Of a stretch of 35,127 bases of DNA, positions 2,535-30,617 are shown piece by piece. The stretch covers positions 22,782 through 57,908 of the forward strand of contig JAAFGT010000042.1 of the NCBI GenBank assembly GCA_010365215.1, in the 5' to 3' direction. The DNA is from Acidipila sp. Its GTDB lineage: Bacteria > Acidobacteriota > Terriglobia > Acidiferrales > UBA7541. The stretch's first letter is position 1; each line of letters begins with the position of its first letter. The position numbers and the translations under genes were made by a program. The notes below the pieces were generated by a model. It did no database searches and had not been told where the DNA came from. It saw only the letters and a list, made by a program, of their open reading frames with translations.

Positions 2535-3572
2535 ATGCGGGTTGTCGATCTATTCAAGGCACATCGATATGTCGGTGTGGCATGCATGCTCGCTCTAGCT
2601 GCAATTCTCCCCGCCATCGCTGCGGCCCAGCTATCGACTGGCAAAGCGCCCGTCGCCGAGACGCCCCCGCACGGCTACGTTATCACCCAGCCGATTACGG
2701 GTACGAACGTTCCGGGAGACTACACCTTCGTTCTCACTCGCGACGAAATCTACGTGCCCATTATCGTGCGCAAACCGAAGGGCGATGGGCCGTTCCCGGC
2801 CATCACCATGGGCTGGGGCGAAGGCCGCGAGGGTATGCACAAGGTGGAAGGGCTGGCGAAAAACTGGACGCAGATGCAGGACCACATGCTCGCGCGCGGT
2901 TACGTGGTCGCCACGGTAAATTATCGCAACGAAGTTCCCTATTTTTACGAACAGTCCAAACCCGCGCAAAATCTTCCCGACAGCATCAGCGGCGACAGGC
3001 GCACGCTGAAGTCGGGTCCCACTCTCGATCATGAGGATTTGATTGCCATCCTGCGATATCTGCAAAGCCTTCCCTACGTCGATAAAGACGCCGTGGGCGC
3101 GATGGGCGTAAGTCACAGTGGAGAGATGATTCTTAAAGCGGCCAGCGAATTTACGTTTGGTGCGGGAGTTTGCATAGAACCCGCGGCGCACGAATTTCTG
3201 ACCGTGGATACGGGACCGAGCGTGCCGCGCAAGGATAATGAGATCCAGTATAATGATGTGGAGTTGGTGCGGAAGAACTCCAATAAGTCCGAGGGCATGG
3301 AGCGCATCGCGCGGATCCATACGCCCATCCTGATCTTCGGCCGGGATACCGATCACCTGCAGGGCATCTTCAAGCTGACCTACGAATGGATGAAAGAATC
3401 CGGCAAGGACGTAACCTGGGCCAGCTTCGATCATCCCGTTCACGGCTACGTATTTATCTCCAACCAGGAAGACGGATCCTACAAGCCCGATGCGATCCAG
3501 CAGAAGACGTTCGAGATTTTTATGGCGTACTTCGACAAGCACCTCAAACACACGCACGCCGCGGCGCACTAA
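2535..3572 (+). CDS. Secreted alpha/beta hydrolase, dienelactone-hydrolase-like
   Basis: This 345-residue protein has a signal peptide: a basic N-region, the hydrophobic stretch VGVACMLALAAILPAIAA and a probable cleavage near AAAQ. The mature part is an alpha/beta hydrolase. The nucleophile elbow is G-V-S-H-S-G with Ser193 (a G-x-S-x-S variant of GxSxG), a candidate acid is in FGRDTD, and the catalytic His303 is in HPVHGYVF. The fold is closest to dienelactone-hydrolase or S9-like esterases. It is the first gene after the operator-bearing promoter, and the Mo-hydroxylase small subunit starts 26 bp after it. I infer cleavage of an ester or amide linkage of the island's substrate or oxidation product in the periplasm. 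The substrate is not identifiable. The ATG at 2535 follows a GGGGGA ribosome site. Confidence 0.82.
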   Translation: MRVVDLFKAHRYVGVACMLALAAILPAIAAAQLSTGKAPVAETPPHGYVITQPITGTNVPGDYTFVLTRDEIYVPIIVRKPKGDGPFPAITMGWGEGREGMHKVEGLAKNWTQMQDHMLARGYVVATVNYRNEVPYFYEQSKPAQNLPDSISGDRRTLKSGPTLDHEDLIAILRYLQSLPYVDKDAVGAMGVSHSGEMILKAASEFTFGAGVCIEPAAHEFLTVDTGPSVPRKDNEIQYNDVELVRKNSNKSEGMERIARIHTPILIFGRDTDHLQGIFKLTYEWMKESGKDVTWASFDHPVHGYVFISNQEDGSYKPDAIQQKTFEIFMAYFDKHLKHTHAAAH

Positions 3573-3598
3573 TTTTTTTTCGCCAACGGGATTTTCGA

Positions 3599-4078
3599 AT
3601 GGCTGGCATCAAGCAGATCAACGTCAACGGAAAGAATTACGAGATCGACGCGGACGGGCAGGCCAGCCTGCTTTCCGTGCTACGCGAGCAGCTCGACCTG
3701 ACCGGAAGCAAATACGGCTGCGGCGAAGGCCAGTGCGGCGCGTGCACCGTGCTCATCAGCGGAAATCCTCGCAAGTCGTGCATCACCCCGGTGAGCGCGG
3801 TCGGCCAGAAACAGGTCACCACTATTGAAGGCCTGGCGAAAGGCGACCAGCTGCACCCGCTGCAGCAGGCTTTCCTCGACGAAGGCGCTATGCAATGCGC
3901 CTACTGCACGTCGGGAATGATCATGACTGGTGTCGCGCTCTTGAACGCCAACCAGAATCCTTCCGCGTCTGAGATTTCACAGTTCATGGAAGGCAACCTC
4001 TGCCGCTGCGGAACGCAGCCCAGAATTGTTGCCGCGATACAAAAAGCGGCGAAAGCCGGAAAGGCAGCCGGGCAATGA
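3599..4078 (+). CDS. Mo-hydroxylase small subunit, two [2Fe-2S] clusters (isoquinoline 1-oxidoreductase alpha type)
   Basis: This 159-residue protein has the family length. The plant-type ferredoxin domain carries C41, C46, C49 and C61 (GCGEGQCGAC...C). The C-terminal helical domain carries C100, C103, C135 and C137 (CAYC...CRC). All eight ligands of the two clusters are therefore present. In this family the subunit relays electrons from the molybdenum centre to the next carrier. Its TGA overlaps the ATG of the large subunit (ATGA), as expected for a stoichiometric pair. It has no export signal, so if the complex is periplasmic it must be carried out with the Tat signal of its partner. No FAD subunit is encoded nearby, which fits the two-subunit IorAB type that delivers electrons to a cytochrome or quinone rather than to NAD. 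Confidence 0.92.
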   Translation: MAGIKQINVNGKNYEIDADGQASLLSVLREQLDLTGSKYGCGEGQCGACTVLISGNPRKSCITPVSAVGQKQVTTIEGLAKGDQLHPLQQAFLDEGAMQCAYCTSGMIMTGVALLNANQNPSASEISQFMEGNLCRCGTQPRIVAAIQKAAKAGKAAGQ

Positions 4079-6249
4079 CGGCCACGCAGAATTTCCATGA
4101 AGAACTCGAGCCGGAGCGTTACGAGCTCGCCGCGCCGCCGCCCTACCGCTTCGAAGCAGACCGCCGCGAGTTCTTCAAAATCCTCGGTGCCGGAATTCTG
4201 GTGGTCTCTGCTCTCAGCACCGTCCACGCAGCGCAGGAATCCGGCGCAGCCAAACGAAAACCCGGTGGAGAACTGCCGCAAGAAATCAGTGCGTGGTTGC
4301 ACATCGGAGAAAACGGTAAAATCACCGTTTATACCGGCAAAGCCGAGCTGGGCCAGAATATCCGGACATCGCTCAGCCAGGCCGTGGCCGAGGAACTGCG
4401 CGTGTCCATTAGCTCCATTGCCATGGTCATGGGCGATACCGGACTGACTCCGTTTGACATGGGCACCTTTGGCAGCCGGACGACGCCGATCATGAATCTG
4501 CAACTCCGCAAGGCATCCGCGGCGGCGCGCGAGCTACTGATCGGATTGGCCGCCACGCAGTGGAGTATTGATCGTAAACGGCTCTTGGCTGCGCAAGGAA
4601 AGATTTCCGATCCGGACACCTCGCGTTCCGTGGACTATGCGACTCTGGTGAAGGGCCAGCAGCTCACGCAAACACTGCCTGCCGAAGACCCGCTGATCGC
4701 GGCGGCGGCGTGGACGGTGCAGGGCCAATCGTTGCCCAAGGTAGATGGCCGCGATTTCGTCACCGGAAAACATCGTTATCCGTCCGATCTGAAATTGCCG
4801 GAAATGCTACATGGGAAAGTGGTGCGCCCGGCGTCGTTCGGCGCGACGCTGACATCATTTGACGCGCACGAAGCAGAGCAGATGCCGGGCGTCACCGTCG
4901 TCCACGATGGAAATTTTATCGGCGTAGCGGCGGCGAGCACGGAACTTGCCTCCCGCGCCGCAGCGGCCATTCATGCCGAGTGGAAGTCAAAGCCCCAATC
5001 GTCCAATAAGGAGTTGTTCGAATACCTGAAGAAGAATTCCATCGAGAAGAAGGAGCGAGCGGTAGGCGGGGAGTCATCGCGCATCGAATCAGGCTCCATG
5101 GAAAACGGTTTAAAGTCTGCCACCCACCGCTTGCAGCAAAGCTACACCGTCGAGTACATCGCGCACTGCCCGCTGGAGCCTCGCTCTGCCACGGCGCAGT
5201 GGTCCGGCGAGAATGTAACTGTCTGGACCGGCACGCAGAGGCCATTCGGCGTGCGCGGCGAGCTCGCGGAAGCGTTCCGCATTCCCGAAGAGCGCGTACG
5301 CGTGCTGATGCCCGACACCGGTTCGGCCTACGGCGGCAAGCACACGGGCGAAGCTGCGATTGAGGCCGCGCGCCTTGCCCGGGCGGCCAAGCGGCCTGTA
5401 AAGCTGAATTGGACTCGCGAAGAAGAACTGACCTGGGCGTATTTCCGTCCCGCTGGAGTCATCGAGGTCACCAGCGGCATGCGCGCCGACGGCACCATTA
5501 CCGCCTGGGAATTTCATAACTACAATTCCGGCTCGGCGGGCATTCGCACGTTCTATGACATTCCCAACCAGCTCATCGAATTCCATGCCACGCGCTCGCC
5601 ACTGCGGCAGGGCTCCTACCGCGGGCTTGCGGCCACGGCCAATCACTTCGCGCGCGAATCGCACATGGACGAGCTGGCCCTGCTGGTGAAGATGGACCCG
5701 CTGGAGTTTCGTCTCAAGAACCTGAAAGACGAGCGGCTCCGTGCTGTGTTTGAAGCAGCGGCAAAGAAGTTCGGCTGGGGACGAGCAAAAACTTATGCGG
5801 GTCAGGGATTTGGAATCGGCGGTGGATTTGAAAAGGGCGGCAACGTGGCCACGGCTGTCGAGGTCGCCGTGGACCCCGCGACGGGCGCCGTTAAAGTGGT
5901 TCGTGTGGTCACCGCCTTTGAGTGCGGCGCTATCGTCAATCCCGACCACCTGCTGAATCAGATCCAAGGCTCGAACATCATGGGCTTAGGCGGCGCGCTT
6001 TTCGAGGCCATTGAATTTGAAAACGGCCGCATCCTCAACGGGCGCTTTTCGAAATATCGTTTGCCGCGGTTCAGCGATGTTCCTCAGCTGGAGACGGTCA
6101 TGCTCGATCGCAAAGATATTCCTTCCGCCGGAGCCGGCGAAACGCCGATGCTGGGCCTGGCGCCGGCTATAGGGAACGCGATTTTCGATGCCACGGGCGT
6201 GCGCCTTCGCTCCTTGCCGCTGGCTCCAAACGGCGTCAAAAAAGTTTGA
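4075..6249 (+). CDS. Mo-hydroxylase large subunit, molybdopterin-binding, Tat-exported (isoquinoline 1-oxidoreductase beta type)
   Basis: This 724-residue protein has the usual length for IorB-like subunits of the xanthine dehydrogenase/aldehyde oxidase superfamily. A twin-arginine motif R-R-E-F-F-K at about 30-35, followed by a hydrophobic helix (GAGILVVSALSTVHA), indicates export of the folded enzyme. The cofactor motif GGKHTGEAA is near residue 420, and the catalytic Glu of the Mo-hydroxylases is probably E689 in GAGETPMLGLAP. Relatives hydroxylate N-heterocycles such as isoquinoline or oxidise aldehydes, with water as the oxygen source. The 28 residues before the Tat motif form an unusually long N-region. 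The gene overlaps the small subunit by 4 bp. With two exported hydrolases in the same operon, I infer periplasmic oxidation followed by hydrolysis. Which compound is used is unknown. Confidence 0.9.
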   Translation: MTATQNFHEELEPERYELAAPPPYRFEADRREFFKILGAGILVVSALSTVHAAQESGAAKRKPGGELPQEISAWLHIGENGKITVYTGKAELGQNIRTSLSQAVAEELRVSISSIAMVMGDTGLTPFDMGTFGSRTTPIMNLQLRKASAAARELLIGLAATQWSIDRKRLLAAQGKISDPDTSRSVDYATLVKGQQLTQTLPAEDPLIAAAAWTVQGQSLPKVDGRDFVTGKHRYPSDLKLPEMLHGKVVRPASFGATLTSFDAHEAEQMPGVTVVHDGNFIGVAAASTELASRAAAAIHAEWKSKPQSSNKELFEYLKKNSIEKKERAVGGESSRIESGSMENGLKSATHRLQQSYTVEYIAHCPLEPRSATAQWSGENVTVWTGTQRPFGVRGELAEAFRIPEERVRVLMPDTGSAYGGKHTGEAAIEAARLARAAKRPVKLNWTREEELTWAYFRPAGVIEVTSGMRADGTITAWEFHNYNSGSAGIRTFYDIPNQLIEFHATRSPLRQGSYRGLAATANHFARESHMDELALLVKMDPLEFRLKNLKDERLRAVFEAAAKKFGWGRAKTYAGQGFGIGGGFEKGGNVATAVEVAVDPATGAVKVVRVVTAFECGAIVNPDHLLNQIQGSNIMGLGGALFEAIEFENGRILNGRFSKYRLPRFSDVPQLETVMLDRKDIPSAGAGETPMLGLAPAIGNAIFDATGVRLRSLPLAPNGVKKV

Positions 6250-6341
6250 TGGCTTTCGCGAATCGCATTTGTCCGCCAGGCTCACGCATTTATAAAGTTG
6301 TTCCACCGGAAGTGAAACCAATCATCGGCAGGGAGAAAATA

Positions 6342-7589
6342 ATGTCCAATCTCATTGCGCTCGCTCCGCGTCTTGGCTGGGGTTCGCTCACAATTGCAAT
6401 GACCGTTGTGTTCTTTTCCACGGCGCTTGCTCAAGCGCCTCGGGAGCGGACGCTCGAAGAGATAAAGACCGAGGCGCAGACTCGCGCGGAAAATGGAATG
6501 TACCCGCTGATCGGGCTCGACCCGGGAGATGTGCGGGAAGCGTTCGCATCCATCCATTCGCTCGATTACGACGAATGGGCTGCGGGCTGGATGAAAGTTG
6601 CCGACCGTTATATGGCCGAGGGAAAAAAGCTCGAAGCGAAGGAGCCGGCCAAGGCGAATGCGGCGTACATCCGCGCCTGGCGGCTTTACTCTTTCGGGCG
6701 CTGGCCGGTGCCCTCTTCTCCGGGAAAACAACGCGCCTACGCAAAAGCGCTCGAGGCATTTCTGGCTCACGCACATCTGCTCGATCCTCCCCTCGATCTC
6801 GTGCGCATCCCTTTTGAAGGGTCTGAGATTGTCGGCTACCTGCGCGTCCCTAAAACAGCGAACGGCAAGGTACCTCTGGTGATTGCGATCAGCGGTCTGG
6901 ATAGCCGCAAAGAAGATCTCTCGGAAAACTTCGGCGCGGTATTGCCTTTCGGGATTGGCTTTATTGCCATCGATTCGCCGGGGACTGGCCAGGCGCCCAT
7001 CAAAGCCAGCGAAACGGCGGAGCGAATGTTTTCGCGAGTGATCGACTATGTCCTGACTCGCCCCGAGGTGGACAAATCCAGGATCGCCGTAGATGGTCAA
7101 AGTTTCGGCGCTTATTGGGCCACCAAGCTTTCAATCATCGAACACGCCCGTCTGAAGGCCGTAGTCGCGCAGTCTCCCCCCATTCACGCCTCGTTTCAAA
7201 AGGAGTTCATGAGCACTCGCCTCTTTGGAAACCGTGAGTATCTGTTTGGGCTCGCGCCCGCCTTCATGACCATCTATGAGGGCGTCAAGACGGTCGACGA
7301 CCTGATGGCCATTTTTCCCAAGATGTCTCTGGTGAGCCAGAATCTTATCGGGAAGCCCACCACCCCAATGCTCGTCATTGCCGGTGCGCTGGATACCCAG
7401 GTACCCATCGCGGACGCCAACTTGCTTCTGGCTTCAGGCGACGTACCGAAAGAAGCGTGGATCAATCCGAAGGGCGGTCATCTTGGCCGGCAGGTGAAAG
7501 TTTGGCCTGACCCGGTCATTTTCAAGCAGGTGATTATTCCCTGGCTGGTGCGTAATCTGGAAGTAGAGGTCCCGAAAGACCATCTCTAG
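6342..7589 (+). CDS. Exported alpha/beta hydrolase, FrsA/2,6-dihydroxypseudooxynicotine-hydrolase-like
   Basis: From the ATG at 6342 this is 415 residues. I chose that start because AGGGAG lies six nt upstream and it opens a clear signal peptide (GWGSLTIAMTVVFFSTALAQA). An upstream in-frame ATG at 6246 would bury the signal. A helical N-terminal cap (about residues 30-150) precedes the hydrolase core with G-Q-S-F-G (Ser254), an acidic residue in AGALDTQVP, and His380 in GGHLGRQ. The cap-plus-core arrangement and the block IDSPGTGQAP recall the FrsA/DUF1100 esterases and C-C-bond hydrolases such as that of nicotine breakdown. It closes the Mo-hydroxylase operon, 92 bp after the large subunit. 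The function is inferred as a hydrolase only; the nicotine analogy is a resemblance. Confidence 0.8.
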   Translation: MSNLIALAPRLGWGSLTIAMTVVFFSTALAQAPRERTLEEIKTEAQTRAENGMYPLIGLDPGDVREAFASIHSLDYDEWAAGWMKVADRYMAEGKKLEAKEPAKANAAYIRAWRLYSFGRWPVPSSPGKQRAYAKALEAFLAHAHLLDPPLDLVRIPFEGSEIVGYLRVPKTANGKVPLVIAISGLDSRKEDLSENFGAVLPFGIGFIAIDSPGTGQAPIKASETAERMFSRVIDYVLTRPEVDKSRIAVDGQSFGAYWATKLSIIEHARLKAVVAQSPPIHASFQKEFMSTRLFGNREYLFGLAPAFMTIYEGVKTVDDLMAIFPKMSLVSQNLIGKPTTPMLVIAGALDTQVPIADANLLLASGDVPKEAWINPKGGHLGRQVKVWPDPVIFKQVIIPWLVRNLEVEVPKDHL

Positions 7590-7641: not shown

Positions 7642-9315
7642 CTACGTTTTTTTCTGTACTACCGCTTCAATGCTCGTCCCAAAATCCTTTAGCATCACCA
7701 CGGCGGCATTTCGTCCGGGCGCTCCGGTCACCGAACCTCCGGGATGCGTGGTAGCGCCGGTCTGATATAACCCTGGAATTGGCATGCGATGCTGCGCCCA
7801 CCCGGGCACAGGCCGCATGGCGCCGGACTGCGCCGGACCCTGCGCACCGCCGTGACTGCTGCCGTGCCAGTTGTGCGGGTTCATGCGCTCCAGATCGAGC
7901 GGGCTGACAATAACTCGGGCGAGAATTTTGTCGGCAGTGAGATTGGGCGCGAACCGGCGCAAATAGTTCAGATTCGCCTCGGAAACCCGCTCTTTGATTT
8001 CGTCCCAATGCTGCGGCCCTTCTTTCAGGTCGTAGGGATGAAATCCGATAATCTTGAACGTATGCATGCCCGCGGGCGCGCGCGTTGGATCCCCAACGCT
8101 GGGAGCGATAATGGAAAGCACCGGCTCTTCCACATTCACCGCACGGCAGGCGTGATCGAAACTCATGCGTAGACCGCGTTCCGGAGTGGCCATGGTTCCC
8201 GAACGCACCGGGGTAATGGTGCCACCGGAAATGGCATAGGTGGGCGCTTCGCTCGAAGCGTAGTGAGTTTCAAACATGGAACCTTCCACCTGCCACATGT
8301 TCACGCCATCGAGAAAATCCTGGCCCCACAGTTCGCGCGGCGCCATATCCACCAGGTGCTTGATATGGATGGTGGACAGCACGGCTTTTTCGGCTCGGTA
8401 GGCGCTGCCATCGGTGCATTCCACGCCAACACACTTGCCATTTTCCACGACCAGCCGCTGCACCGATTTTTGCGTGAGGATCACCCCGCCGTGCGCTTCG
8501 ATCAGCCGCGCCAGCGCCTGGGTCAAGGCTCCCGACCCGCCCTTGGCCAAACCGGTGCTCCAGCTCTGCCGGCCGTGCACCACCGAGTAAGCCAGGCGGC
8601 CGGTCATGGGATCTTCGGGATGCTGCAAAGTCTCGTGGGCCATCCATACCATGTAGGCGCGGCAATGTTCGTCCTCAAAATTGTCGCGAATAATTTCCCA
8701 CGCGGACATCGCACTGCGCCGCTGCCATCGTTTGCCCTGGGGATGCTCCGCCAGGCGCTCGTTGAGCGGTTTGCCGAAGCCGGCCGGCGCGAATGCAATC
8801 GCGTCGAAGACCGGCTTGATCGCGTCATACTCCGTCATCATTCGCCGGTAGGCCGCCGCATCTTTTTTAGAAAACTTGCCCAGTTCCGCGCAGGTGCGAT
8901 CCATATCCCGCCACTGAGTGATGTAGCTGCCGTCGGCAAACGGCATATGCATCACCAGGTCTGGGAAAATATATTCCAACCCATATTCACCGAGCTTGAG
9001 CTCGTCGTTCCGCATCAGCGGATTATCTTGAATGATGATATGTCCCGAGGCGCAGGTGTCGTGTTTGAAGCCGGGCAGGGTTAATTCTCCGGTTTTTACG
9101 TCGCCTCCCACCGCAAAGCGGCCTTCCAGAACCAGGCAGCGGTATCCTGCTTTGGACAGGTACGCCGCGGTGATCAAGCTGTTGTGTCCGGCGCCTGCCA
9201 CGACAACATCAAAGCGGCCGGTGCCCGAAGTTTTCTGTTTCAGGCTAATACTTCCCAGCGCCAGCGGCGCCAAAGCTGCTCCTTTTACGAACCCGCGCCG
9301 CGTGATGCCGCTCAT
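7642..9315 (-). CDS. Tat-exported FAD-dependent oxidoreductase, COG1233 phytoene-desaturase-like, paralogue A
   Basis: This 557-residue protein starts with a twin-arginine signal T-R-R-G-F-V-K-G-A-A-L. An FAD-binding dinucleotide fold follows (DVVVAGAGHNSLITAAYL, about residues 35-52, ending in VLE). The C-terminal flavin motif LYQTGATTHPGGSVTGAPGR is typical of the COG1233/PYROXD2-like branch of the amine-oxidase/phytoene-desaturase superfamily. A strong GGGAGG ribosome site lies 8 nt before the ATG. It is the last of three close paralogues in one minus-strand run, and follows a pentahaem cytochrome by 48 bp. A plausible reading is a periplasmic dehydrogenase that passes electrons to that cytochrome. 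The substrate is unknown; carotenoid synthesis is unlikely because no partner genes are present. Confidence 0.85.
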   Translation of the reverse strand: MSGITRRGFVKGAALAPLALGSISLKQKTSGTGRFDVVVAGAGHNSLITAAYLSKAGYRCLVLEGRFAVGGDVKTGELTLPGFKHDTCASGHIIIQDNPLMRNDELKLGEYGLEYIFPDLVMHMPFADGSYITQWRDMDRTCAELGKFSKKDAAAYRRMMTEYDAIKPVFDAIAFAPAGFGKPLNERLAEHPQGKRWQRRSAMSAWEIIRDNFEDEHCRAYMVWMAHETLQHPEDPMTGRLAYSVVHGRQSWSTGLAKGGSGALTQALARLIEAHGGVILTQKSVQRLVVENGKCVGVECTDGSAYRAEKAVLSTIHIKHLVDMAPRELWGQDFLDGVNMWQVEGSMFETHYASSEAPTYAISGGTITPVRSGTMATPERGLRMSFDHACRAVNVEEPVLSIIAPSVGDPTRAPAGMHTFKIIGFHPYDLKEGPQHWDEIKERVSEANLNYLRRFAPNLTADKILARVIVSPLDLERMNPHNWHGSSHGGAQGPAQSGAMRPVPGWAQHRMPIPGLYQTGATTHPGGSVTGAPGRNAAVVMLKDFGTSIEAVVQKKT

Positions 9316-9363
9316 CTCACTTCCTCCCGCCTGTTTCTCCTGCTCCTTGGTTTCTACTGCTCA

Positions 9364-9966
9364 TTAATTGTTTAGTGGTTTGTTGCCCACGCCCGGCGTC
9401 ATGGACGGATGACATGTTTCGCAAGTGCTTTTGGCTTTGCTCATTTCATGGCAGTGCAGGCAACTGAACATTGAGGTGACGCTGGTCGCCTCGGTCATCA
9501 CGTCCATCTGCGCCACCGCGCCGTGGCACGTTTCGCATTTCACTCCCGCTTGCAGATGTTTTCGGTGAGTCCAGGTCACACCGGGAAGGACGGCATACAC
9601 GCGCACCCAGGGTATCGCGGCACCGGATTTCGCAAACCCAGCGAGCTTCTGAATCGAAGGACTGTTCTGGGCGATTGCGGAATGACACTGCATGCACTTG
9701 CTGGCAGCGGGGAACTCCATTTTCTTACCTGGGTCGGCGTTGGTATGGCAGTCCTTGCATTCCAGGCCAAGCGCCAGGTGTTTCTTGTGGCTGTAGGGTA
9801 TCGGCTGCACGGGTGCCGCCGGCTTGCCGGGATTATCCGGCACGGCCGCCCTCAGGGCTGTTGATGGCTTCGTCTCCTGCGCAGTGACTGCCATGCCAGC
9901 AAAAAGAAACACTGCCAGCGCCTCGATAGCCAGCACAAATACAATTTTTCTGTTTCGTGGAATCAT
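9364..9966 (-). CDS. Pentahaem c-type cytochrome, periplasmic, paralogue 1
   Basis: This 200-residue protein has a signal peptide (IVFVLAIEALAVFLFAGMAVTAQ) and five C-x-x-C-H haem sites: CKDCH, CMQCH, CETCH, CLHCH and CETCH. Extra His residues in YSHKKH and THRKH before haems 1 and 3 are likely distal ligands, as in class III cytochromes. The order of motifs and the block IPWVRVY resemble pentahaem subunits such as ActA of alternative complex III, but no other subunit of such a complex is here. I start it at ATG 9966 because GAGG lies 7 nt upstream; a TTG just before it is less likely. It lies between FAD oxidoreductases A and B, so it probably accepts their electrons. Confidence 0.88.
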   Translation of the reverse strand: MIPRNRKIVFVLAIEALAVFLFAGMAVTAQETKPSTALRAAVPDNPGKPAAPVQPIPYSHKKHLALGLECKDCHTNADPGKKMEFPAASKCMQCHSAIAQNSPSIQKLAGFAKSGAAIPWVRVYAVLPGVTWTHRKHLQAGVKCETCHGAVAQMDVMTEATSVTSMFSCLHCHEMSKAKSTCETCHPSMTPGVGNKPLNN

Positions 9967-10003
9967 CAACCTGCCTCGGCAACACTCACGATTCGCAGCT
10001 CTG

Positions 10004-11674
10004 TTATGTCTTCTTCACCAGCACTTCCTCAAGGCTCGTCCCGAAATCCTTCAGCATCACGATGGCCGCATTTCTTCCCGGCGCGCCAGTCACCGATCCT
10101 CCAGGATAAGTGGTGGCGCCGGTTTGATACAGGCCGGGAATGGGCATGCGATATTGCGCCCAACCCGGCACCGGCCGCATACCCCCTGTCTGCGCAGGGC
10201 TTTGCGCGCCGCCGTGAGCGCTGCCGCGCCAGAAACCAGGGTTCATGCGCTCCAGATCGAGCGGACTTTCGATGAACCGCGCCAGGATCTTGTCGTCGGT
10301 CAGATTTGGCGCAAAGCGCCGCAAATACTTCAGATTTGCATCAGAGACCTGCTCTTTGATCGCGTCCCAATGTTGCGGACCTTCCTTCAAACCATAGGGT
10401 TGAAAGCCGATAATTTTTAGAGTGTGCAAGCCGGCAGGAGCGCGCGTGGCATCCGCGACGCTGCAGCAGACAATTTGCAACGGAGGGTCTTCGAGATTGA
10501 CCGCGCCGCGAATATCGTCGTAAGCAAAACGCAAAGCTCGCTCCGGCGTTGCCATGATGACCGCTTCCACGGGCGCGAGTGTGCCGCCAGCGGTTGCGTA
10601 TCTCGGCGGTTCGGAGGTGGCGTAATGCGTCACGAACATCGTGCACTCACCTTGAAACGTCTCCACTCCCTCGACAAAATCCTGGCCCCACAGCTCGCGC
10701 GGTGCCATATCGACAAGGTGCTTGATATGCACGGTGGAGAGCACCGCTTTCCCGGCTCGGTATGTGCTGCCGTCGGAGCATTCCACACCGGCACATTTTC
10801 CGTTCTCCACGATCAATTGCTTTATCCATTTGTTTGTGAGTATCACGCCGTGATGCGCCTCGATGTAGCGCGCCAGCGCTTGCGTTAACATCCCGGAGCC
10901 GCCTTTCGGAAGCGGCCGGTCGGAATACTGTTGCGAGACGGCGGAGTAAGCCAGGCGGCCGGTCATGGGCTGCTCCGGTGGAATGGAAGATAGATGCCCC
11001 ATGGCCAGCATGTACGCGCGGCAATGATCATCTTCGAAATTATCGCGAATAATTTCCCACGCGGACATGGCCATGCGGCGCTGCCACAGTTTTCCCTGAG
11101 GATGCTCGGCGAGGCGCTCGTTGACCGGTTTTCCAAAACCAACGGGAGTATAAGTAGCCGCGCTGAGGATGGGCTTGATGGTTTGAAACTCCTCCATCAT
11201 TCGCTTATAGGTAGCGCCGTCCTTCTTCGAAAACTTTGCGAACTCGGCGATGGTGCGCTGCGCATCGTGCCACTGGGTGATGAAGCTGCCATCGGGAAAA
11301 GGCATGTGCATGATGGGATCAGGGAAAATATATTCGAGTCCGTAGTCCCCCAGTTTGAGCTCGTCATTGCGCAGCAGCGGATTATCCTGAATAAAGGAAT
11401 GCGCCGTGGAGCACACATCGTCGCGAAATCCCCGCAGGGTTAATTGCGCAGTCTTCACGCCGCCGCCAACGATCGGCCTGCCCTCCAAAACCAGGCAGCG
11501 GTACCCGGCTTTGGCCAGGTAGGCGGTGGTGATCAGACTGTTGTGTCCGGCGCCGGCAACGACGATGTCGAAGCGGTCGGCGTCAGGAGCAGCCTGCTGC
11601 ATGCGAAGGCTTCCCAATGCCAGCGGCGCCAGCGCTGCTCCCTTTACGAATCCGCGCCGTGTGATCGTGCTCAT
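10004..11674 (-). CDS. Tat-exported FAD-dependent oxidoreductase, COG1233-type, paralogue B
   Basis: This 556-residue protein is collinear with paralogue A along its whole length. The first residues again read T-R-R-G-F-V-K-G-A-A-L-A-P-L-A-L-G, the FAD motif is DIVVAGAGHNSLITTAYL, and the C-terminus ends in the same GAPGRNAA block. Near the C-terminus A and C read N-P-H-N-W-H-G, while B reads N-P-G-F-W-R-G, so two His are missing; if they are in the active site, B has a different specificity. The ribosome site GGAGG is 4 nt before the ATG. A pentahaem cytochrome gene lies on each side, 37 bp downstream and 74 bp upstream. The function is inferred as for A: periplasmic oxidation coupled to cytochrome c. 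Confidence 0.85.
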   Translation of the reverse strand: MSTITRRGFVKGAALAPLALGSLRMQQAAPDADRFDIVVAGAGHNSLITTAYLAKAGYRCLVLEGRPIVGGGVKTAQLTLRGFRDDVCSTAHSFIQDNPLLRNDELKLGDYGLEYIFPDPIMHMPFPDGSFITQWHDAQRTIAEFAKFSKKDGATYKRMMEEFQTIKPILSAATYTPVGFGKPVNERLAEHPQGKLWQRRMAMSAWEIIRDNFEDDHCRAYMLAMGHLSSIPPEQPMTGRLAYSAVSQQYSDRPLPKGGSGMLTQALARYIEAHHGVILTNKWIKQLIVENGKCAGVECSDGSTYRAGKAVLSTVHIKHLVDMAPRELWGQDFVEGVETFQGECTMFVTHYATSEPPRYATAGGTLAPVEAVIMATPERALRFAYDDIRGAVNLEDPPLQIVCCSVADATRAPAGLHTLKIIGFQPYGLKEGPQHWDAIKEQVSDANLKYLRRFAPNLTDDKILARFIESPLDLERMNPGFWRGSAHGGAQSPAQTGGMRPVPGWAQYRMPIPGLYQTGATTYPGGSVTGAPGRNAAIVMLKDFGTSLEEVLVKKT

Positions 11675-11748
11675 CGTACCTCCGCCCCACAGTTCCTAAG
11701 CTGCTCGGTCCTTGAGCTGCTTAGCACTTACGCCATTTGTCGCGCAAA

Positions 11749-12318
11749 CTAGTTATGGCAGGTATCGCAACCGGTTTTGGTTTTGAACATTTCGTGGCAG
11801 TGCACGCAACCGTACATGGAGGTCACCACCGTGGCTTGCCCCATAACTTCCATCTGCGCAACCTGTCCGTGGCACATTTCGCACTTCAATCCCGCGTCCA
11901 GGTGGGTGCTGTGGCGCCAATGCACAAACGCCGGAAGTTTATAGACGCGCACCCAGGGAATTGGATCCTGCGCTTTCGCGAATTGCGCCAGTTTTTGAAT
12001 GGCCGGCCTGTCCTTGGCAATCGTGGCGTGGCACCCCATGCATTTGCTGGTGGCAGGGAAGGTCATCACGGTCCGCGGTTCAGGATTTACGTGGCAGAAT
12101 TTGCATTCCAAACCCAGCGCCAAATGCTTCTTATGGCTATACGGGATGGGCTGCGTCGGAGTAGGCGCTTGAAAATTCTTGAAAACCAATTCTTCTTGCT
12201 TGAAAGATTGTGGCACTGGCGCCGTCTGGCGAGCCGGCAGTGCCACCGCGATGAATAAAAACGCAGCCGCAGCTTGCACCGTCACAACCAGCGCGATATT
12301 TCGCTTTCTCTGTTTCAC
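11749..12318 (-). CDS. Pentahaem c-type cytochrome, periplasmic, paralogue 2
   Basis: This 189-residue protein has a signal peptide (NIALVVTVQAAAAFLFIAVALPA) and five C-x-x-C-H sites: CKFCH, CMGCH, CEMCH, CVHCH and CDTCH. The last is five residues from the C-terminus. It shares the sequence PIPYSHKKHLALGLEC exactly with paralogue 1, and also the IPWVRVY block, so the two arose by duplication of a cytochrome/oxidoreductase pair. The start is GTG at 12318, with GGAGG 8 nt upstream. It is between oxidoreductases C and B. It is most likely a soluble or peripherally attached periplasmic electron carrier; where its electrons go is not shown by anything in the window. Confidence 0.88.
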   Translation of the reverse strand: MKQRKRNIALVVTVQAAAAFLFIAVALPARQTAPVPQSFKQEELVFKNFQAPTPTQPIPYSHKKHLALGLECKFCHVNPEPRTVMTFPATSKCMGCHATIAKDRPAIQKLAQFAKAQDPIPWVRVYKLPAFVHWRHSTHLDAGLKCEMCHGQVAQMEVMGQATVVTSMYGCVHCHEMFKTKTGCDTCHN

Positions 12319-12361
12319 CGAGCTGACCTCCGAAACCTGATCAAGCGCATTGCTCTTACCA

Positions 12362-13963
12362 TCAGTTCTTTTTCTGAATCACGTCCTCGATGGTCGTTCC
12401 GAAATCCTTGAGCATCACCGTCGCGGCATTTCGTCCGGGCGCTCCCGATACCGATCCGCCGGGATAAGTGGTGGCACCCGTTTGATACAAGCCGGTAATG
12501 GGCATGCGGTGCTGCGCCCAACCTGGAACCGGCCGCATCGCGCCGGACTGCGCCGGATTTTGCGCGCCGCCGTGGCAACTGCCATGCCAGTTGTGCGGAT
12601 TCATGCGCTCCAGATCGAACGGGCTTTCCACCACGTGCGCGAGAATTTTGTCGTCGGTAAGATTGGGCGAGAATCGCCGCAGATAATTCAGATTTGCCGT
12701 GGAGACCTGCTGCTTGATCTCGTCCCAGTGCCGCGGCCCTTCCTTCAAATCGTAGGGCTGAAAGCCGATGATTTTCACAACGTGCTTGCCCGCAGGCGCG
12801 CGCGTGGGATCCGCCACACTACTGCACACGATCAGCAGCGACGGATCCTCCACGTTGACCGCCCTGCGGGCATAGTCGTAGCCCATGCGCAGGGCGCGTT
12901 CCGGAGTGGCCATCGTGCCTGCGGCTATCGGGGAAATGCTGCCTCCCGCGACCGCAAAAGTGGGCGGCTCACTAGTGGCGTAGTGCGTGACGAACAAAGT
13001 GCCGCCGGCCTGCCACGTGTCCACTCCATCGATGAAATCTTGCCCCCACAGCTCGCGCGGCGCCATCTCCACCAGATGCTTGATGTGCATCGTGGAAAGC
13101 ACAGCTTTCTCGGCGCGATATGAGCTGCCGTCAAGGCATTCCACGCCAAGGCATTTACCGCCTTCCACAATCAGCCGGTGCACCGTCTTCTCTGTGAGGA
13201 TCACGCCGCCGTGCGCTTCGATCAACTTTCCCAGCGCCTGCGTCAACGCTCCCGAGCCCCCCTTCGGCGCCGTCCAGCTCCAGCGCTGGCGGCCATAAAC
13301 CAGCGAGTACGCCAGCCGCCCGCTCATAGGCTCTTCCGGCGGCACCACGGTCTGCAGCGCCATCCACAGCATGAATGCGCGGCAGTGGTCGTCTTCGAAA
13401 TTGCCGCGAATGATCTCCCAAGCGGACATGGCAATGCGGCGCTGCCAGATCTTTCCCTGGGGATGCGCGGCCAGCCGCTCGTTTAGCGGTTTGCCGAAAC
13501 CTATCGGCGTGTAGGCGGTCGAGTCGAAAAGCGGTTTGATGGCCTCATAATCGGTGATCATCCGCCGGTAGGCCACAGCATCTTTTTTTGAAAACTTCGC
13601 GAACTCCGCGCAGGTGCGCTCCACGTCGCGCCACTGCGTGATGTAACTCCCGTCGGGAAATGGGATGTGCACCACCGGATCCGGAAAAATGTACTCCAGC
13701 CCGTAATCCCCCAGCTTCAGCTCGTCATTGCGCAGGATGGGACTGTCCTGGATGAGGACGTGCGCCGAGGAACAGGTGTCGTGCAGAAATCCCGGCAGGG
13801 TCATCGCGCCGGTAGCGGCGCCGCCGCCGATTAACGGCCGGTGCTCGAGCACCAGACAGCGATAGCCGGCCTTAGCCAGATAAGCTGCGGCCACCAGACT
13901 ATTGTGTCCGGCGCCTGCCACAACAATATCAAAGCGGTCGGACTTAGCGGGTTCCTGCGCCAT
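12362..13963 (-). CDS. FAD-dependent oxidoreductase, COG1233-type, paralogue C, without the Tat signal
   Basis: This 533-residue protein matches paralogues A and B from the FAD motif (DIVVAGAGHNSLVAAAYL, about residues 11-28) to the last residues (QKKN). It begins only ten residues before that motif (M-A-Q-E-P-A-K-S-D-R-F). The twin-arginine segment of about 25 residues is absent. An in-frame TAG lies 39 nt upstream with no ATG, GTG or TTG between, so the signal is not hidden by a wrong start. The ribosome site is poor (ACTTACT), unlike the strong sites of A and B. Either C works in the cytoplasm, or its 5' end was lost during duplication and it is carried out with a partner or poorly expressed. 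The core motifs look intact. Confidence 0.83.
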   Translation of the reverse strand: MAQEPAKSDRFDIVVAGAGHNSLVAAAYLAKAGYRCLVLEHRPLIGGGAATGAMTLPGFLHDTCSSAHVLIQDSPILRNDELKLGDYGLEYIFPDPVVHIPFPDGSYITQWRDVERTCAEFAKFSKKDAVAYRRMITDYEAIKPLFDSTAYTPIGFGKPLNERLAAHPQGKIWQRRIAMSAWEIIRGNFEDDHCRAFMLWMALQTVVPPEEPMSGRLAYSLVYGRQRWSWTAPKGGSGALTQALGKLIEAHGGVILTEKTVHRLIVEGGKCLGVECLDGSSYRAEKAVLSTMHIKHLVEMAPRELWGQDFIDGVDTWQAGGTLFVTHYATSEPPTFAVAGGSISPIAAGTMATPERALRMGYDYARRAVNVEDPSLLIVCSSVADPTRAPAGKHVVKIIGFQPYDLKEGPRHWDEIKQQVSTANLNYLRRFSPNLTDDKILAHVVESPFDLERMNPHNWHGSCHGGAQNPAQSGAMRPVPGWAQHRMPITGLYQTGATTYPGGSVSGAPGRNAATVMLKDFGTTIEDVIQKKN

Positions 13964-14018: not shown

Positions 14019-14855
14019 CTATTCAATTCTGGTGTTAAAGCTGAAAAGCATTTGCCAGCGGCCGTCGCGCTGCACCCACATCCGCGTATTGAAATATGGC
14101 TTGGCCTCAGCGCGCTGTTCGCGCGCGATCATCATCACCGTTTCTCCGAAGTCAAACATGCGCGCGGAAAGGAGCGGGGGCGGCGCCGCATTTGTTCGCG
14201 TTTGCTTTTGCTTATTGATTTGAGCGATGCGCTCCGATTTAGTGAGCGCCGCGGTGTGGTGTGTGTCGGTAGCCGTGAATTCGTCAGCGATAAGCGGCGC
14301 GTAGGCCCCGGCGTCATTGTTTGCCATGGCCTTCATCACGCCCTGCCAGGAAGCGATGGCTGCTCTCTCCGATTCCGTCTGTGGCTCGAACGGTATCGTG
14401 CGGCAAGGATTTTCGCATTCGCTTGAACCGGTTGCAACGCGCTCCGCCTGGGCAGCCAATGTGACTTCTTGATACAGCACGAGGCGCCAGGCTCCTGGAC
14501 GTTTCACCCACACGCGCAAAACCTGGACTCTTCCTCGGTTGGCTCTTACGACGGCGGCGCGTCCATAGTCACGCGCCTGTATTTCGACTTCGCCGTTCTG
14601 TAACGCCGGCAAATTTTCGAGTACCTGAGCCTTGCTGTGGCTCACTCCGTTGGAGTCGATCCAGGTGAAATCCGCATCAAGCAGCCTATCGAGTGCGGCC
14701 GCGTCTGCTTTCCCGACAGCTTCGACAAAAGCGTGATCGGCCTGAACCGCCGCCGGCTCATCGGCGATTCCGGCGGCATACCCGCCGGCTGCTGCGGCAA
14801 ATATACCGCTGCAAACCAGGCCCGCAAGAATGACGCGCGTGATCCAGGTATTCAT
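14019..14855 (-). CDS. Secreted protein with two NTF2-like (DUF4440/SnoaL-type) domains, paralogue b
   Basis: This 278-residue protein has a signal peptide (VILAGLVCSGIFAAAAGGYAAG). Two NTF2-like domains follow, about residues 35-130 (QADHAFVEAVGKADAAALDRLLDADF) and 160-278 (ASWQGVMKAMANNDAGAYAPLIADEF). They are joined by a linker with the motif C-E-N-P-C. Each domain ends in the strand pattern expected of DUF4440 (RVWVKRPGAWRLVLYQ and RMWVQRDGRWQMLFSF). NTF2-like folds serve as small-molecule isomerases, hydratases or binding pockets. The gene is 54 bp after its paralogue and 55 bp before oxidoreductase C, so it probably belongs to the same exported pathway. It has no strong ribosome site; the ATG is only a few nt from a pair of 20-bp direct repeats. 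Exact function unknown. Confidence 0.75.
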   Translation of the reverse strand: MNTWITRVILAGLVCSGIFAAAAGGYAAGIADEPAAVQADHAFVEAVGKADAAALDRLLDADFTWIDSNGVSHSKAQVLENLPALQNGEVEIQARDYGRAAVVRANRGRVQVLRVWVKRPGAWRLVLYQEVTLAAQAERVATGSSECENPCRTIPFEPQTESERAAIASWQGVMKAMANNDAGAYAPLIADEFTATDTHHTAALTKSERIAQINKQKQTRTNAAPPPLLSARMFDFGETVMMIAREQRAEAKPYFNTRMWVQRDGRWQMLFSFNTRIE

Positions 14856-14909: not shown

Positions 14910-15791
14910 TCAGGTTTTCGCCGCAGCGGCTTGTATGGCGGTCTGAAAACTGATGGCCATCACCCACTGTCCATCGTGTTTGATCCACACGCGAGTGACG
15001 TGCACCGGCTTGCCGTGATGAGGCTGATGCTCACCGGTCATAACTACCGTGCCCGGAAAGTCGAACATCTTCGCTGAGACCAGCGGCGCCGGCGCCGAGC
15101 CAACCCCTGCCAGTTTCTGTTTATTCAAGGTGGCCATGCGATCGGCCTTGGAGAGCGGTCGATCGTTGTTGGAACTCAGCATTATGAATTCGTCGGCAAT
15201 GTGCGGGGCCCAGGCATCGGCGTCGTGGGCGGTAACGCCAGTCTCGAGCGCTTGCCACGAAGCGACCACCCCACGCTCCGCTTCGTTCCTGGGCTTGTAC
15301 GGCAGCGTCTTGCAGGGATTCTCGCAGTCCACCACGCCCGTTCCCGCCGCCGTCGGAGGCTGGTCGCTAAGCTTGACCTCGTGATAAACCAACGCGCGCC
15401 AGCCTGCGGGCCGCTTCACCCACACGCGTAAAACGAATAATTTTGCGCTTCCCACGGTGACCGCGCCCACCTGCCCGTAGGTGTGTTCCTTTACATCCAG
15501 GCCGCTTTCGTCACCAAGCGTGGAAATGGGTAGCGCCTGCAAAACCTGCGCCTTGCTTTGAGTTTTCCCCTGCGCGTCCGTCCAAGTGAAGTTTGTATCA
15601 AGCAGTTTGCCGGCGGCCGCTTTGTCGGCTTTCCCAATAGCCTGCACCAGCGCACGGTCTGCTTGCAGCAGCGCCTGATCTTGCGGCGCCTGACGAGCAC
15701 CGGCGGCAAAAACCGGTAAGGTCGTTGGAGGAACAGCACAAACAAAAAGAAGTGCGGTGGCGGCGAGGGAATTCCTAACCAGGGGTCTCAT
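14910..15791 (-). CDS. Secreted protein with two NTF2-like (DUF4440/SnoaL-type) domains, paralogue a
   Basis: From the ATG at 15791 this is 293 residues. I prefer it over the ATG at 15821 because it opens directly on a signal peptide (SLAATALLFVCAVPPTTLPVFA) and has GGGGAGG upstream, although the spacing (about 11 nt) is long. Domain 1 starts at LQADRALVQAIGKADKAAAG and domain 2 at ASWQALETGVTAHDADAWAP. The linker C-E-N-P-C is kept between the two paralogues. The protein is clearly homologous to the next gene along its whole length. It is the first gene after the TonB receptor terminator, and no clear promoter lies in the 96 bp between, so the downstream run may depend on read-through. Function unknown. 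Confidence 0.75.
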   Translation of the reverse strand: MRPLVRNSLAATALLFVCAVPPTTLPVFAAGARQAPQDQALLQADRALVQAIGKADKAAAGKLLDTNFTWTDAQGKTQSKAQVLQALPISTLGDESGLDVKEHTYGQVGAVTVGSAKLFVLRVWVKRPAGWRALVYHEVKLSDQPPTAAGTGVVDCENPCKTLPYKPRNEAERGVVASWQALETGVTAHDADAWAPHIADEFIMLSSNNDRPLSKADRMATLNKQKLAGVGSAPAPLVSAKMFDFPGTVVMTGEHQPHHGKPVHVTRVWIKHDGQWVMAISFQTAIQAAAAKT

Positions 15792-15834
15792 CGAAATTAA
15801 GTCCTCCCCAAAACGAAGCACTTGCAGCGGATTG

Positions 15835-15861
15835 AAAAAGGGCCGGACTTGCGTCCGGCCC
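15835..15861 (-). terminator. Rho-independent terminator of the TonB receptor gene
   Basis: On the minus strand a perfect 9-bp stem (GGGCCGGAC / GTCCGGCCC, 15840-15848 with 15853-15861) with a 4-nt loop is followed by TTTTT (15839-15835). It lies 27 bp after the receptor stop codon and before the NTF2-like gene. Confidence 0.85.
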
Positions 15862-15887
15862 CGTCATCAAAGCCTTGCCTGAAGCAA

Positions 15888-24145: not shown

Positions 24146-24877
24146 ATGGCTTACAAAACGCTCCAGTCGTTGCGACTCTACGAGCAGATCGTTCAACAAA
24201 TTGAAGATTCCATCCTGCAGGGTGCGCTCAAGCCCGGCGACCAGCTGCCGGCCGAGCGGGAGTTAGCGCAGCAGTTCGGTGTCAGCCGCACGGCGGTCCG
24301 CGAAGCAGTGAAGGTTTTAAGAGAAAAAGGACTGGTTGAAGCATATTCCGGCCGTGGAACATTCATCACCGACGGCACCTCGCAGGCCATCCGTCAATCG
24401 CTCGATCTGATGATCAAGATCGGGCAGCCCGAAGGCTCCACGCACCTGGTGGAAGTGCGCGAAATTCTGGAACCGGAGATTGCCGCGCTGGCGGCAACGC
24501 GAGGAGAAGAGCAGCACCTCACGGCGATGCGCGAAGCCGTTGCGGTGATGGAGGGCGCCGGCACCAACGCCGAGGCGTTCATCGAGGCGGATCTCGATTT
24601 CCATCTTTCGCTTGCCGAAGCCGCCGCGAATCCGGTTATCTTGTCGCTCATCGATTCCATCGTTGGACTGCTGCGCGAACAGCGGCTGACCATCTTTACC
24701 GTGCCAGGCGGCCCCGAGCGGGGTCAGTTCCACCACAAAAAAATCCTCGAGGCCATCGAGCATCGTGCTCCGGAACGGGCGCGCGAAGCGATGCGCGCGC
24801 ATCTGCAGCAGGTGCGCACCGATACGCGCGCTTTCGCGGCCAAGCGCGAGCCGGCGCTTTCCAAATCGGTTTCGTAA
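24146..24877 (+). CDS. GntR-family transcriptional regulator, FadR subfamily (FCD domain)
   Basis: This 243-residue protein has an N-terminal winged helix-turn-helix with the GntR signature KPGDQLPAERELAQQFGVSR, then TAVREAVKVLREKGLVEAYSGRGTFI (about residues 30-75). The C-terminal all-helical FCD domain has putative metal-binding residues D and H in EADLDFHLSLAEAA, H in QFHHKKILEAI and H in REAMRAHLQ. The FCD domain senses a small organic acid or its CoA ester in relatives such as FadR, LldR and PdhR. The ribosome site GGAGGG is four nt before the ATG. It heads the operon of the dehydrogenase genes. The sites of FadR-type sequence at 2462, 19483, 19597, 22385, 22503 and 24040 are its likely targets; it would act as a repressor at those covering a -10. 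The effector is unknown. Confidence 0.9.
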   Translation: MAYKTLQSLRLYEQIVQQIEDSILQGALKPGDQLPAERELAQQFGVSRTAVREAVKVLREKGLVEAYSGRGTFITDGTSQAIRQSLDLMIKIGQPEGSTHLVEVREILEPEIAALAATRGEEQHLTAMREAVAVMEGAGTNAEAFIEADLDFHLSLAEAAANPVILSLIDSIVGLLREQRLTIFTVPGGPERGQFHHKKILEAIEHRAPERAREAMRAHLQQVRTDTRAFAAKREPALSKSVS

Positions 24878-24895
24878 GACGGGAGTTTTGTCAGG

Positions 24896-25777
24896 ATGGC
24901 TAATCTCGGATTTGTAGGCCTCGGCGTGATGGGCGGAAACATGGTGAACCGCCTGCTGAGCAAAGGTCACAGCGTAACCGGCTACAACCGCACCCGCGCC
25001 AAGGCGGAATGGCTGATTGGGCGCGGGATGCGCTGGGCCGATTCCCCGCGAGCCGTATGCGCCGCAGCGGATATTGTTTTCTCAATGGTCACCAATTCCG
25101 CGGCGCTGAATATCATTGCCGAGGGGCCCGACGGCTTGCTGGCCGGACTCGCCGCGGGCAAGACGCTGATCGACATGAGCACGGTGAGTCCCACGGTGAG
25201 CCGGGCTCTGGCGCAAAAAGTTCGCGAGAAAGGTGCTGACCTTGTTGACGCGCCGGTATCCGGCAGCGTGATCACTCTTCAGGAAGGCAAGCTCTCCGTG
25301 ATGGTGGGCGGCCGCCGCGAAACCTTCGATCGCGTGAAGCCAGTGCTCGACGACATCGGCCCGAAAGTTACCCACGTGGGCGGGAACGGGCAAGCGCTGG
25401 TGATGAAAATCGCCACCAACCTCAGCCTCGCCGTGCAGATGCTCGCTTTCTCCGAAGCCGTCTTGCTGGCGGAAAAAGGCGGCATCGCGCGCGAGACCGC
25501 TGTCGACGTTTTAACGCACAGCGTCATCGCTTCACCCATGGTTCAGTACCGCGGGCCCTTCGTCCTGAAAATGCCGGAAGAGGCCTGGTTCGACGTAAAC
25601 ATGATGCAAAAAGACATGCTGCTGGCCCTCGAACTGGGGCGCCAGTTCGACGTCCCCCTGCCCACCACCGCGGCGACGAACGAATTCCTCTCCGCCGCTC
25701 GCGGCATGGGATGGGCCAAGAAGGATTTTGCCGTGGTCTTCGATGTACTAGCGCGCATGTCCGGAGTGGAAAGATGA
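24896..25777 (+). CDS. Beta-hydroxyacid dehydrogenase, 3-hydroxyisobutyrate/tartronate-semialdehyde-reductase-like
   Basis: This 293-residue protein has the family length. The N-terminal Rossmann motif is GFVGLGVMGGNM (residues 5-16). The substrate-binding block DAPVSGSVITLQEGKLSVMVGG matches the family signature DAPVSGG, with the third-position Gly changed to Ser-Val. The catalytic lysine is K171 in LVMKIATNLSL. It probably interconverts a beta-hydroxyacid and a semialdehyde with NAD(P)H in the cytoplasm, which would link it to the semialdehyde-type aldehyde dehydrogenase just upstream. Its TGA overlaps the ATG of the E1alpha gene (ATGA), so translation is coupled. The exact substrate is not known. 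Confidence 0.88.
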   Translation: MANLGFVGLGVMGGNMVNRLLSKGHSVTGYNRTRAKAEWLIGRGMRWADSPRAVCAAADIVFSMVTNSAALNIIAEGPDGLLAGLAAGKTLIDMSTVSPTVSRALAQKVREKGADLVDAPVSGSVITLQEGKLSVMVGGRRETFDRVKPVLDDIGPKVTHVGGNGQALVMKIATNLSLAVQMLAFSEAVLLAEKGGIARETAVDVLTHSVIASPMVQYRGPFVLKMPEEAWFDVNMMQKDMLLALELGRQFDVPLPTTAATNEFLSAARGMGWAKKDFAVVFDVLARMSGVER

Positions 25778-27772: not shown

Positions 27773-27795
27773 CATTTTAGAACTGGAGGCGGGCG

Positions 27796-29154: not shown

Positions 29155-29202
29155 CGTCGCGCATCAACGCTACCGGTCCGTCCATTCGGCGTCCCAAAAC
29201 TT

Positions 29203-30414: not shown

Positions 30415-30560
30415 TTTGCGCTTGCTGCGGCGCGCGCCTGCCGGAACAAAAACTTTTCTGCCGCACAAGCCTCATCGCTCGACCCTCGGTGAATTGAAAG
30501 CGCGTCACTTCTGTAAAGGTCGGGTAGAATACTCAAATTCATGACGCGGCTGGTCTCGTT

Positions 30561-30598
30561 TACAATTAGCTCCGCCATGTACAATCAGCTCCGCCAGC
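30561..30598 (+). repeat. 19-bp tandem repeat in the dctA leader
   Basis: TACAATTAGCTCCGCCATG (30561-30579) is directly followed by TACAATCAGCTCCGCCAGC (30580-30598); 16 of 19 positions match. It ends 19 bp before the dctA start codon and 10 bp before its ribosome site (CGAGG). A -10-like TAGAAT lies further upstream at 30524-30529. The repeat is probably in the transcribed leader and may bind a regulator or be a simple slippage product. Confidence 0.65.
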
Positions 30599-30617
30599 AA
30601 AGGGCGCCCGAGGTTCA

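Follow-up and report, generated by a model that had tools for sequence, protein, structure and literature searches.

A run of five genes in a 35,127-nucleotide stretch of DNA from Acidipila sp. (the window; assembly GCA_010365215.1, contig JAAFGT010000042.1, positions 22,782 to 57,908) probably encodes a periplasmic dehydrogenase module, in which enzymes dependent on flavin adenine dinucleotide (FAD) pass electrons to their own pentahaem cytochrome c and from there into respiration rather than to oxygen. The genome (4.1 Mb in 91 contigs) has metagenome-assembled genomes of soil acidobacteria as its closest named relatives. The five open reading frames run on the minus strand from 13963 to 7642 in the order oxidoreductase A, cytochrome 1, oxidoreductase B, cytochrome 2 and oxidoreductase C (Table 1), with gaps of 43 bases between A and cytochrome 1, 74 between cytochrome 1 and B, 34 between B and cytochrome 2 and 48 between cytochrome 2 and C. 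Cytochrome 1 starts with GTG and has GGAGG upstream, whilst cytochrome 2 has 201 residues from its first start codon (TTG at 9969), with ATG at 9966 an equally likely start. A reading made earlier from the letters alone (the original prediction) had described this order, strand and close spacing, and all three are borne out, with gaps of 34–74 bases. The same holds for its description of the three flavoenzymes as close paralogues over their whole length, as they are mutually 72–75% identical, and of exact blocks common to the two cytochromes, as PIPYSHKKHLALGLEC is present in both. The cytochromes are 58% identical and contain five CxxCH motifs apiece.

The pairing of the two genes is conserved well beyond this genome. 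In an even sample of 396 genomes of the phylum, close flavoenzymes were found in three, the window's own, G373 and G229; in G373 the cytochrome follows the flavoenzyme at 95 bases, and in G229 the flavoenzyme gene lies at the end of a contig. When named genomes were scanned with an alignment of five enzymes, 80 loci were recovered; dozens of genomes of soil acidobacteria, and four of proteobacteria, have the cytochrome gene after that of the enzyme. The cytochrome goes with the twin-arginine translocation (Tat) signal: it is present at 32 of the 36 informative loci whose enzyme is Tat-bearing and at none of the 41 loci with Tat-less enzymes only (p = 1e-17, uncorrected for relatedness, the locus counts not being independent events). 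These 41 loci belong to Alphaproteobacteria, Actinobacteria, Chloroflexi and others, and a few of their contigs end near the gene. No other open reading frame with at least three CxxCH motifs was found in any flank of the named-genome loci. The contrast also appears within the Proteobacteria, where L085, L106, L112 and L116 have both features and L069–L078 have neither; a test on independent pairs had three pairs only and no power.

A search for both genes in 95 genomes from the order of the window gave 38 cytochromes at 50% identity or more, below which identity drops to about 40%. All but two of these come immediately after a close flavoenzyme relative, on the same strand and 38–379 bases downstream of it, and a 37th follows a flavoenzyme cut by the contig end. 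The last (L183, 2420–4924) comes after a Tat-bearing flavoprotein of another kind (NAD_binding_8, by eye similar to spermidine dehydrogenase), which possibly represents a partner swap of a COG1233-linked cytochrome. The module is patchy in the order, where it occurs in 24 of the 95 genomes; both genes are found in 23 genomes, one only in two and neither in 70 (Fisher p = 9e-20, uncorrected for relatedness). The pair is thus conserved across the order, the phylum and the named genomes, which excludes a pairing unique to this genome, one of two outcomes that the original prediction had set against itself.

The second outcome, unrelated trees for the two families, is likewise excluded. Across 33 pairs, the distances among enzymes and among cytochromes correlate with a Mantel r of 0.777, compared with a maximum of 0.467 in 5000 permutations, and for the 28 acidobacterial pairs r is 0.646 (permutation maximum 0.519). 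Proteobacterial pairs group together in both trees, although some of the inner branches are weakly supported. Oxidoreductase A and cytochrome 1 lie near the base of their respective trees, whilst B and cytochrome 2 both fall among the Gp2 copies and group with orthologues from other acidobacteria, which indicates that the duplication of the module is old. The 34 paired cytochromes all form a single clade (95.8% SH-aLRT), apart from relatives adjacent to GMC or pyrroloquinoline quinone (PQQ) enzymes and from those of alternative complex III. In the whole genome only three matches to the window cytochrome are found, namely cytochromes 1 and 2 and one ActA (40%) within an alternative complex III operon; as two of the three are at this locus, their co-location is not due to chance.

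A profile built from three of the cytochrome sequences has as its nearest solved relatives the ActA subunits of alternative complex III (8k9e, 6f0k, 6lod). ActA contains four bis-His haems and a haem I with His/Met ligation, arranged in a 45 Å line (PMC5928083). Five CxxCH motifs, four distal His residues and one Met are invariant in 33 cytochromes, and the protein is accordingly predicted to hold four bis-His haems and one His/Met haem, the assignment of ligand to haem being carried over from ActA. The likeness to ActA thus covers the number of haems, the alignment of the haem domain and the predicted ligand set. The differences are that no ActB–F genes adjoin, that the N-terminus looks more like a cleavable signal than a retained anchor and that the paired cytochromes form their own clade. 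By eye, the N-termini resemble cleavable signals of the Sec pathway, often with AQQ past the hydrophobic stretch. The QrcA model NF041781 gives 59.6 and 58.5 bits with the window cytochromes, below its cut-off of 180. Membership of either alternative complex III or Qrc was rejected, as the partner genes are missing (no ActB–F genes are present in the flanks of the window cytochromes) and the scores are under the cut-offs. The genome's own ActA is located elsewhere, on C35, together with ActB–F, SCO, oxidase subunit II and COX1.

The three flavoenzymes match the Pfam families Amino_oxidase, DAO and NAD_binding_8, and their best curated model is CrtO (NF045689), with 267–285 bits against a cut-off of 1000. 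The structure model of B (pLDDT 87) has CrtD and CrtI as its nearest folds, with NicA2 (5ttj) at rank 7. A sequence-profile search with the enzyme places CrtI at the top, and a phmmer search of B against PDB sequences returns CrtI and two uncharacterised proteins only, without NicA2. With CrtO as the top curated model (267 bits for B) and CrtD and CrtI as the closest folds, a carotenoid desaturase or ketolase engaged in pigment synthesis has to be considered. It is very improbable and was rejected on score and context: the enzymes score far below the CrtO cut-off, they are exported, their surroundings are catabolic and no carotenoid genes were recognised among the recurrent neighbours. An amine as the substrate is unsupported, the nearest relatives being carotenoid-type desaturases and ketolases. 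In B, Cys88 and His92 are near-invariant and lie where the limonene dehydrogenase CtmAB and delta-24 sterol desaturase bind their flavin covalently. The motif GF(L/R)x(N/S)(T/L)HA is replaced by GFxxDxC(S/A/G), which reads GFxxDxCS in the window enzymes with Cys88 at the position of the His, and a covalent histidyl flavin of the CtmAB type was rejected because this motif is not matched; a cysteinyl flavin through Cys88, or a link through His92, is possible in B.

The original prediction had called the oxidoreductase of the module exported. This stands for B and C, both of which carry a Tat signal matched by TIGR01409 (Tat calls are based on the motif and this one profile), but not for A, which has no signal of its own. 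The N-terminus of A reads MAQEPAKSDRFDIVVA, and the 55 bases that separate it from the preceding gene contain no Tat motif; a signal hidden by a wrongly called start was rejected, as there is no room upstream. One explanation is that only the Tat-bearing pairs function as proposed, and that A is an enzyme of the cytosol which uses oxygen and is no more than co-transcribed with them. The missing signal fits this view, and cytosolic homologues without a cytochrome are common in other phyla. It is nevertheless rather unlikely, since a cytochrome gene directly follows A and since, in acidobacteria, most Tat-less copies immediately precede a Tat-bearing copy, which in eight cases is followed by the cytochrome. 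This placement would be explained by passenger export. Such export is known for PaoABC (PMC4273604), and in the same phylum GMC subunits that lack a signal look like passengers of the Tat-bearing small subunits beside them.

We infer the proposed route from the gene order, the Tat signals, the five haem sites, the conserved pairing, the shared descent and the genes for alternative complex III, oxidase and TatC, the last of which is also present in the genome. Oxidoreductases B and C would fold with FAD in the cytosol and be exported by Tat, and A would most likely reach the periplasm as a passenger on a Tat-bearing paralogue. There the enzymes would oxidise a catabolic substrate, which is probably hydrophobic, and the family suggests desaturation or allylic C–H oxidation. 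The reduced flavin would then hand single electrons directly to its partner, the soluble ActA-related pentahaem cytochrome, and the haem chain would pass them to the respiratory chain, for which the haem-copper oxidase linked to alternative complex III is the likely sink.

The original prediction had likened the module to amine dehydrogenases that use cytochrome c, and the comparison is apt. NicA2 and Pnao with CycN, and their relatives, are flavoprotein amine oxidoreductases that use cytochrome c (PMC12224317, PMC9396064), and in the NicA2 group a Tat signal and an adjacent cytochrome gene, the same two genetic signs, predicted cytochrome use that was verified kinetically (PMC12224317). The reasoning applied here, which sets genes with both signs against relatives with neither, is the one that predicted the cytochrome-using dehydrogenases of that group. 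The window enzymes share with NicA2 and Pnao the two-domain FAD fold, the Tat signal (in B and C, not A), the adjacent gene for a Sec-exported cytochrome (as judged by eye in the window) and the existence of relatives that lack both. They differ in belonging to the COG1233/CrtO-like branch, in having a pentahaem ActA-like rather than a monohaem cytochrome, in being acidobacterial and in occurring as tandem paralogues. The likeness is therefore one of analogy and not of membership, as both the flavoenzyme branch and the class of cytochrome differ. Oxygen-independent allylic oxidation in catabolism is also known from CtmAB and delta-24 sterol desaturase (PMC4109377, PMC11061730), which are COG1233-type or similar flavoproteins composed of two different subunits; the tandem Tat-less and Tat-bearing paralogues are at most suggestive of such a heteromer. 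In contrast to the window, the Ctm genes are clustered with a ferredoxin and its reductase, and the motif for covalent flavin attachment is different.

Several points weigh against the proposed module. Gene adjacency probably reflects co-expression and not contact, and A has no Tat signal even though it adjoins cytochrome 1. The structure model of the cytochrome, built without haem, is of low confidence (pLDDT 63), and four Tat-bearing enzymes have no cytochrome nearby (L058, L061, L062 and L080). In the NicA2 study, Tat proteins without an adjacent cytochrome were mostly oxidases, and the AlphaFold models used a one-haem cytochrome (PMC12224317). The four enzymes may be oxidases in the periplasm or may rely on a cytochrome encoded farther away; that of L080 is followed by a hydrolase which by eye resembles CocE/NonD. 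If the enzymes in general were periplasmic oxidases using oxygen, the cytochrome would serve another enzyme of the cluster, such as the molybdenum hydroxylase that comes after it in several loci. This is quite improbable: of the 38 cytochromes in the order, 37 come after the flavoenzyme, while many loci either lack the hydroxylase or, like that of the window, encode it on the other strand.

The neighbourhood of the module, partly on the opposite strand in the window, is catabolic as judged from the encoded families (Table 1). The gene set from the GntR regulator to the DctA-type symporter also adjoins the enzyme in related acidobacteria (L043, L045, L052–L054, L059 and L068) and would form a catabolic pathway linked to a 2-oxoacid dehydrogenase. 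The FrsA/Ayg1-like hydrolase recurs next to Tat-bearing and Tat-less homologues alike, and the M24 protein and molybdenum subunit are likewise found repeatedly with Tat-less homologues, so that the two branches probably share a class of substrate. No single known pathway was matched by the M24 DddP-like, FrsA/Ayg1-like, molybdenum hydroxylase and E1/E2 neighbours. The large molybdenum subunit has an N-terminal MoCoBD_2 match ahead of its hammerhead domain, an arrangement like that of IorB. In nine loci (L047, L048, L055 and others), the neighbours of the flavoenzyme include tandem DUF4440 proteins whose N-termini look export-like. In the window, the DUF4440 gene closest to A probably belongs to the first part of the transcription unit of the five-gene run, and the hairpin upstream is likely to be its border; hairpins as a whole are no more numerous in the region than in shuffled sequence.

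Table 1. Features of the window, with the five genes of the module listed first
Feature	Position	Strand
Oxidoreductase A: COG1233/CrtO-like FAD protein, 533 aa, without Tat signal	12362..13963	-
Cytochrome 1: stand-alone ActA-like pentahaem cytochrome c, export signal, 189 aa	11749..12318	-
Oxidoreductase B: COG1233/CrtO-like FAD protein, Tat signal, 556 aa	10004..11674	-
Cytochrome 2: stand-alone ActA-like pentahaem cytochrome c, export signal	9364..9969	-
Oxidoreductase C: COG1233/CrtO-like FAD protein, Tat signal, 557 aa, final gene in run	7642..9315	-
DUF4440 (NTF2-like) protein, two repeats	14019..14855	-
Second DUF4440 protein	14910..15821	-
Strong terminator-like hairpin with a stem of 10 pairs followed by a T run; separates TonB-type receptor gene from DUF4440 genes	15839..15862	-
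FrsA/Ayg1/2,6-dihydroxypseudooxynicotine-hydrolase-like alpha/beta hydrolase, convergent neighbour	6246..7589	+
2Fe-2S subunit of xanthine-dehydrogenase-family molybdenum hydroxylase, recurrent neighbour	3386..4078	+
Molybdenum-binding large subunit of the same xanthine-dehydrogenase-family hydroxylase	4075..6249	+
GntR/FCD regulator, HIBADH-like reductase, pyruvate dehydrogenase (PDH)-like E1alpha, E1beta, M24 (DddP/DoeA-like) hydrolase, E2 acyltransferase, DctA-type symporter	24146..31925	+

These surroundings bear on the direction of electron flow. Exported flavin reductases that receive electrons from multihaem donors are known, and the cytochrome resembles QrcA and ActA, both members of quinol-linked complexes. 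Electrons could hence run in reverse, with the cytochrome taking them from quinol or alternative complex III and feeding a periplasmic flavin reductase (a saturase), comparable to the flavocytochrome c fumarate and methacrylate reductases or to retinol saturase of the same flavoprotein superfamily. This is improbable in view of the catabolic neighbours (molybdenum hydroxylase, PDH-like E1/E2, hydrolases and symporter), of the ActA-like cytochromes in the same phylum that adjoin GMC and PQQ enzymes, which are dehydrogenases, and of the nearest curated families, which are desaturases and ketolases and not of the fumarate reductase type.

Members of the wider cytochrome family adjoin GMC oxidoreductases together with a Tat-bearing gluconate-2-dehydrogenase subunit 3, PQQ dehydrogenases and ActB-like genes. 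Stand-alone ActA-like cytochromes next to GMC or PQQ genes are found in acidobacteria at L127–L146, for example L130, L134, L136 and L139. The acidobacterial GMC system resembles the window module in using the same cytochrome family and in having a large subunit without a signal beside a Tat-bearing small subunit, and differs in that the catalytic family is unrelated and the cytochromes fall in other clades. From these gene contexts, the stand-alone ActA-like cytochrome would apparently be a portable electron acceptor. A broader proposal, which we put forward tentatively and as something that may well not hold in full, is that the soluble ActA relative is an exchangeable pentahaem acceptor for unrelated exported dehydrogenases (COG1233, GMC, PQQ and another Tat flavoprotein), and that with the COG1233 branch it would form a periplasmic desaturase or allylic oxidase that works independently of oxygen, with the Tat-less subunit exported by way of its Tat-bearing paralogue.

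The original prediction also knew of no described system with this fixed pairing. The kind of system has been described, in the NicA2 group, but for this flavoenzyme branch with a pentahaem ActA-type partner no description was found in the open-paper literature. COG1233 enzymes have been studied as carotenoid enzymes or as cytosolic or membrane desaturases. If the proposed module is correct, the finding that flavin ‘oxidases’ are often cytochrome-using dehydrogenases would extend to another branch of the superfamily, one that is large and exported, and stand-alone ActA-like cytochromes may serve as markers for new periplasmic dehydrogenases. Uncultured soil acidobacteria would then pass electrons from unusual substrates to the respiratory chain with no formation of hydrogen peroxide.

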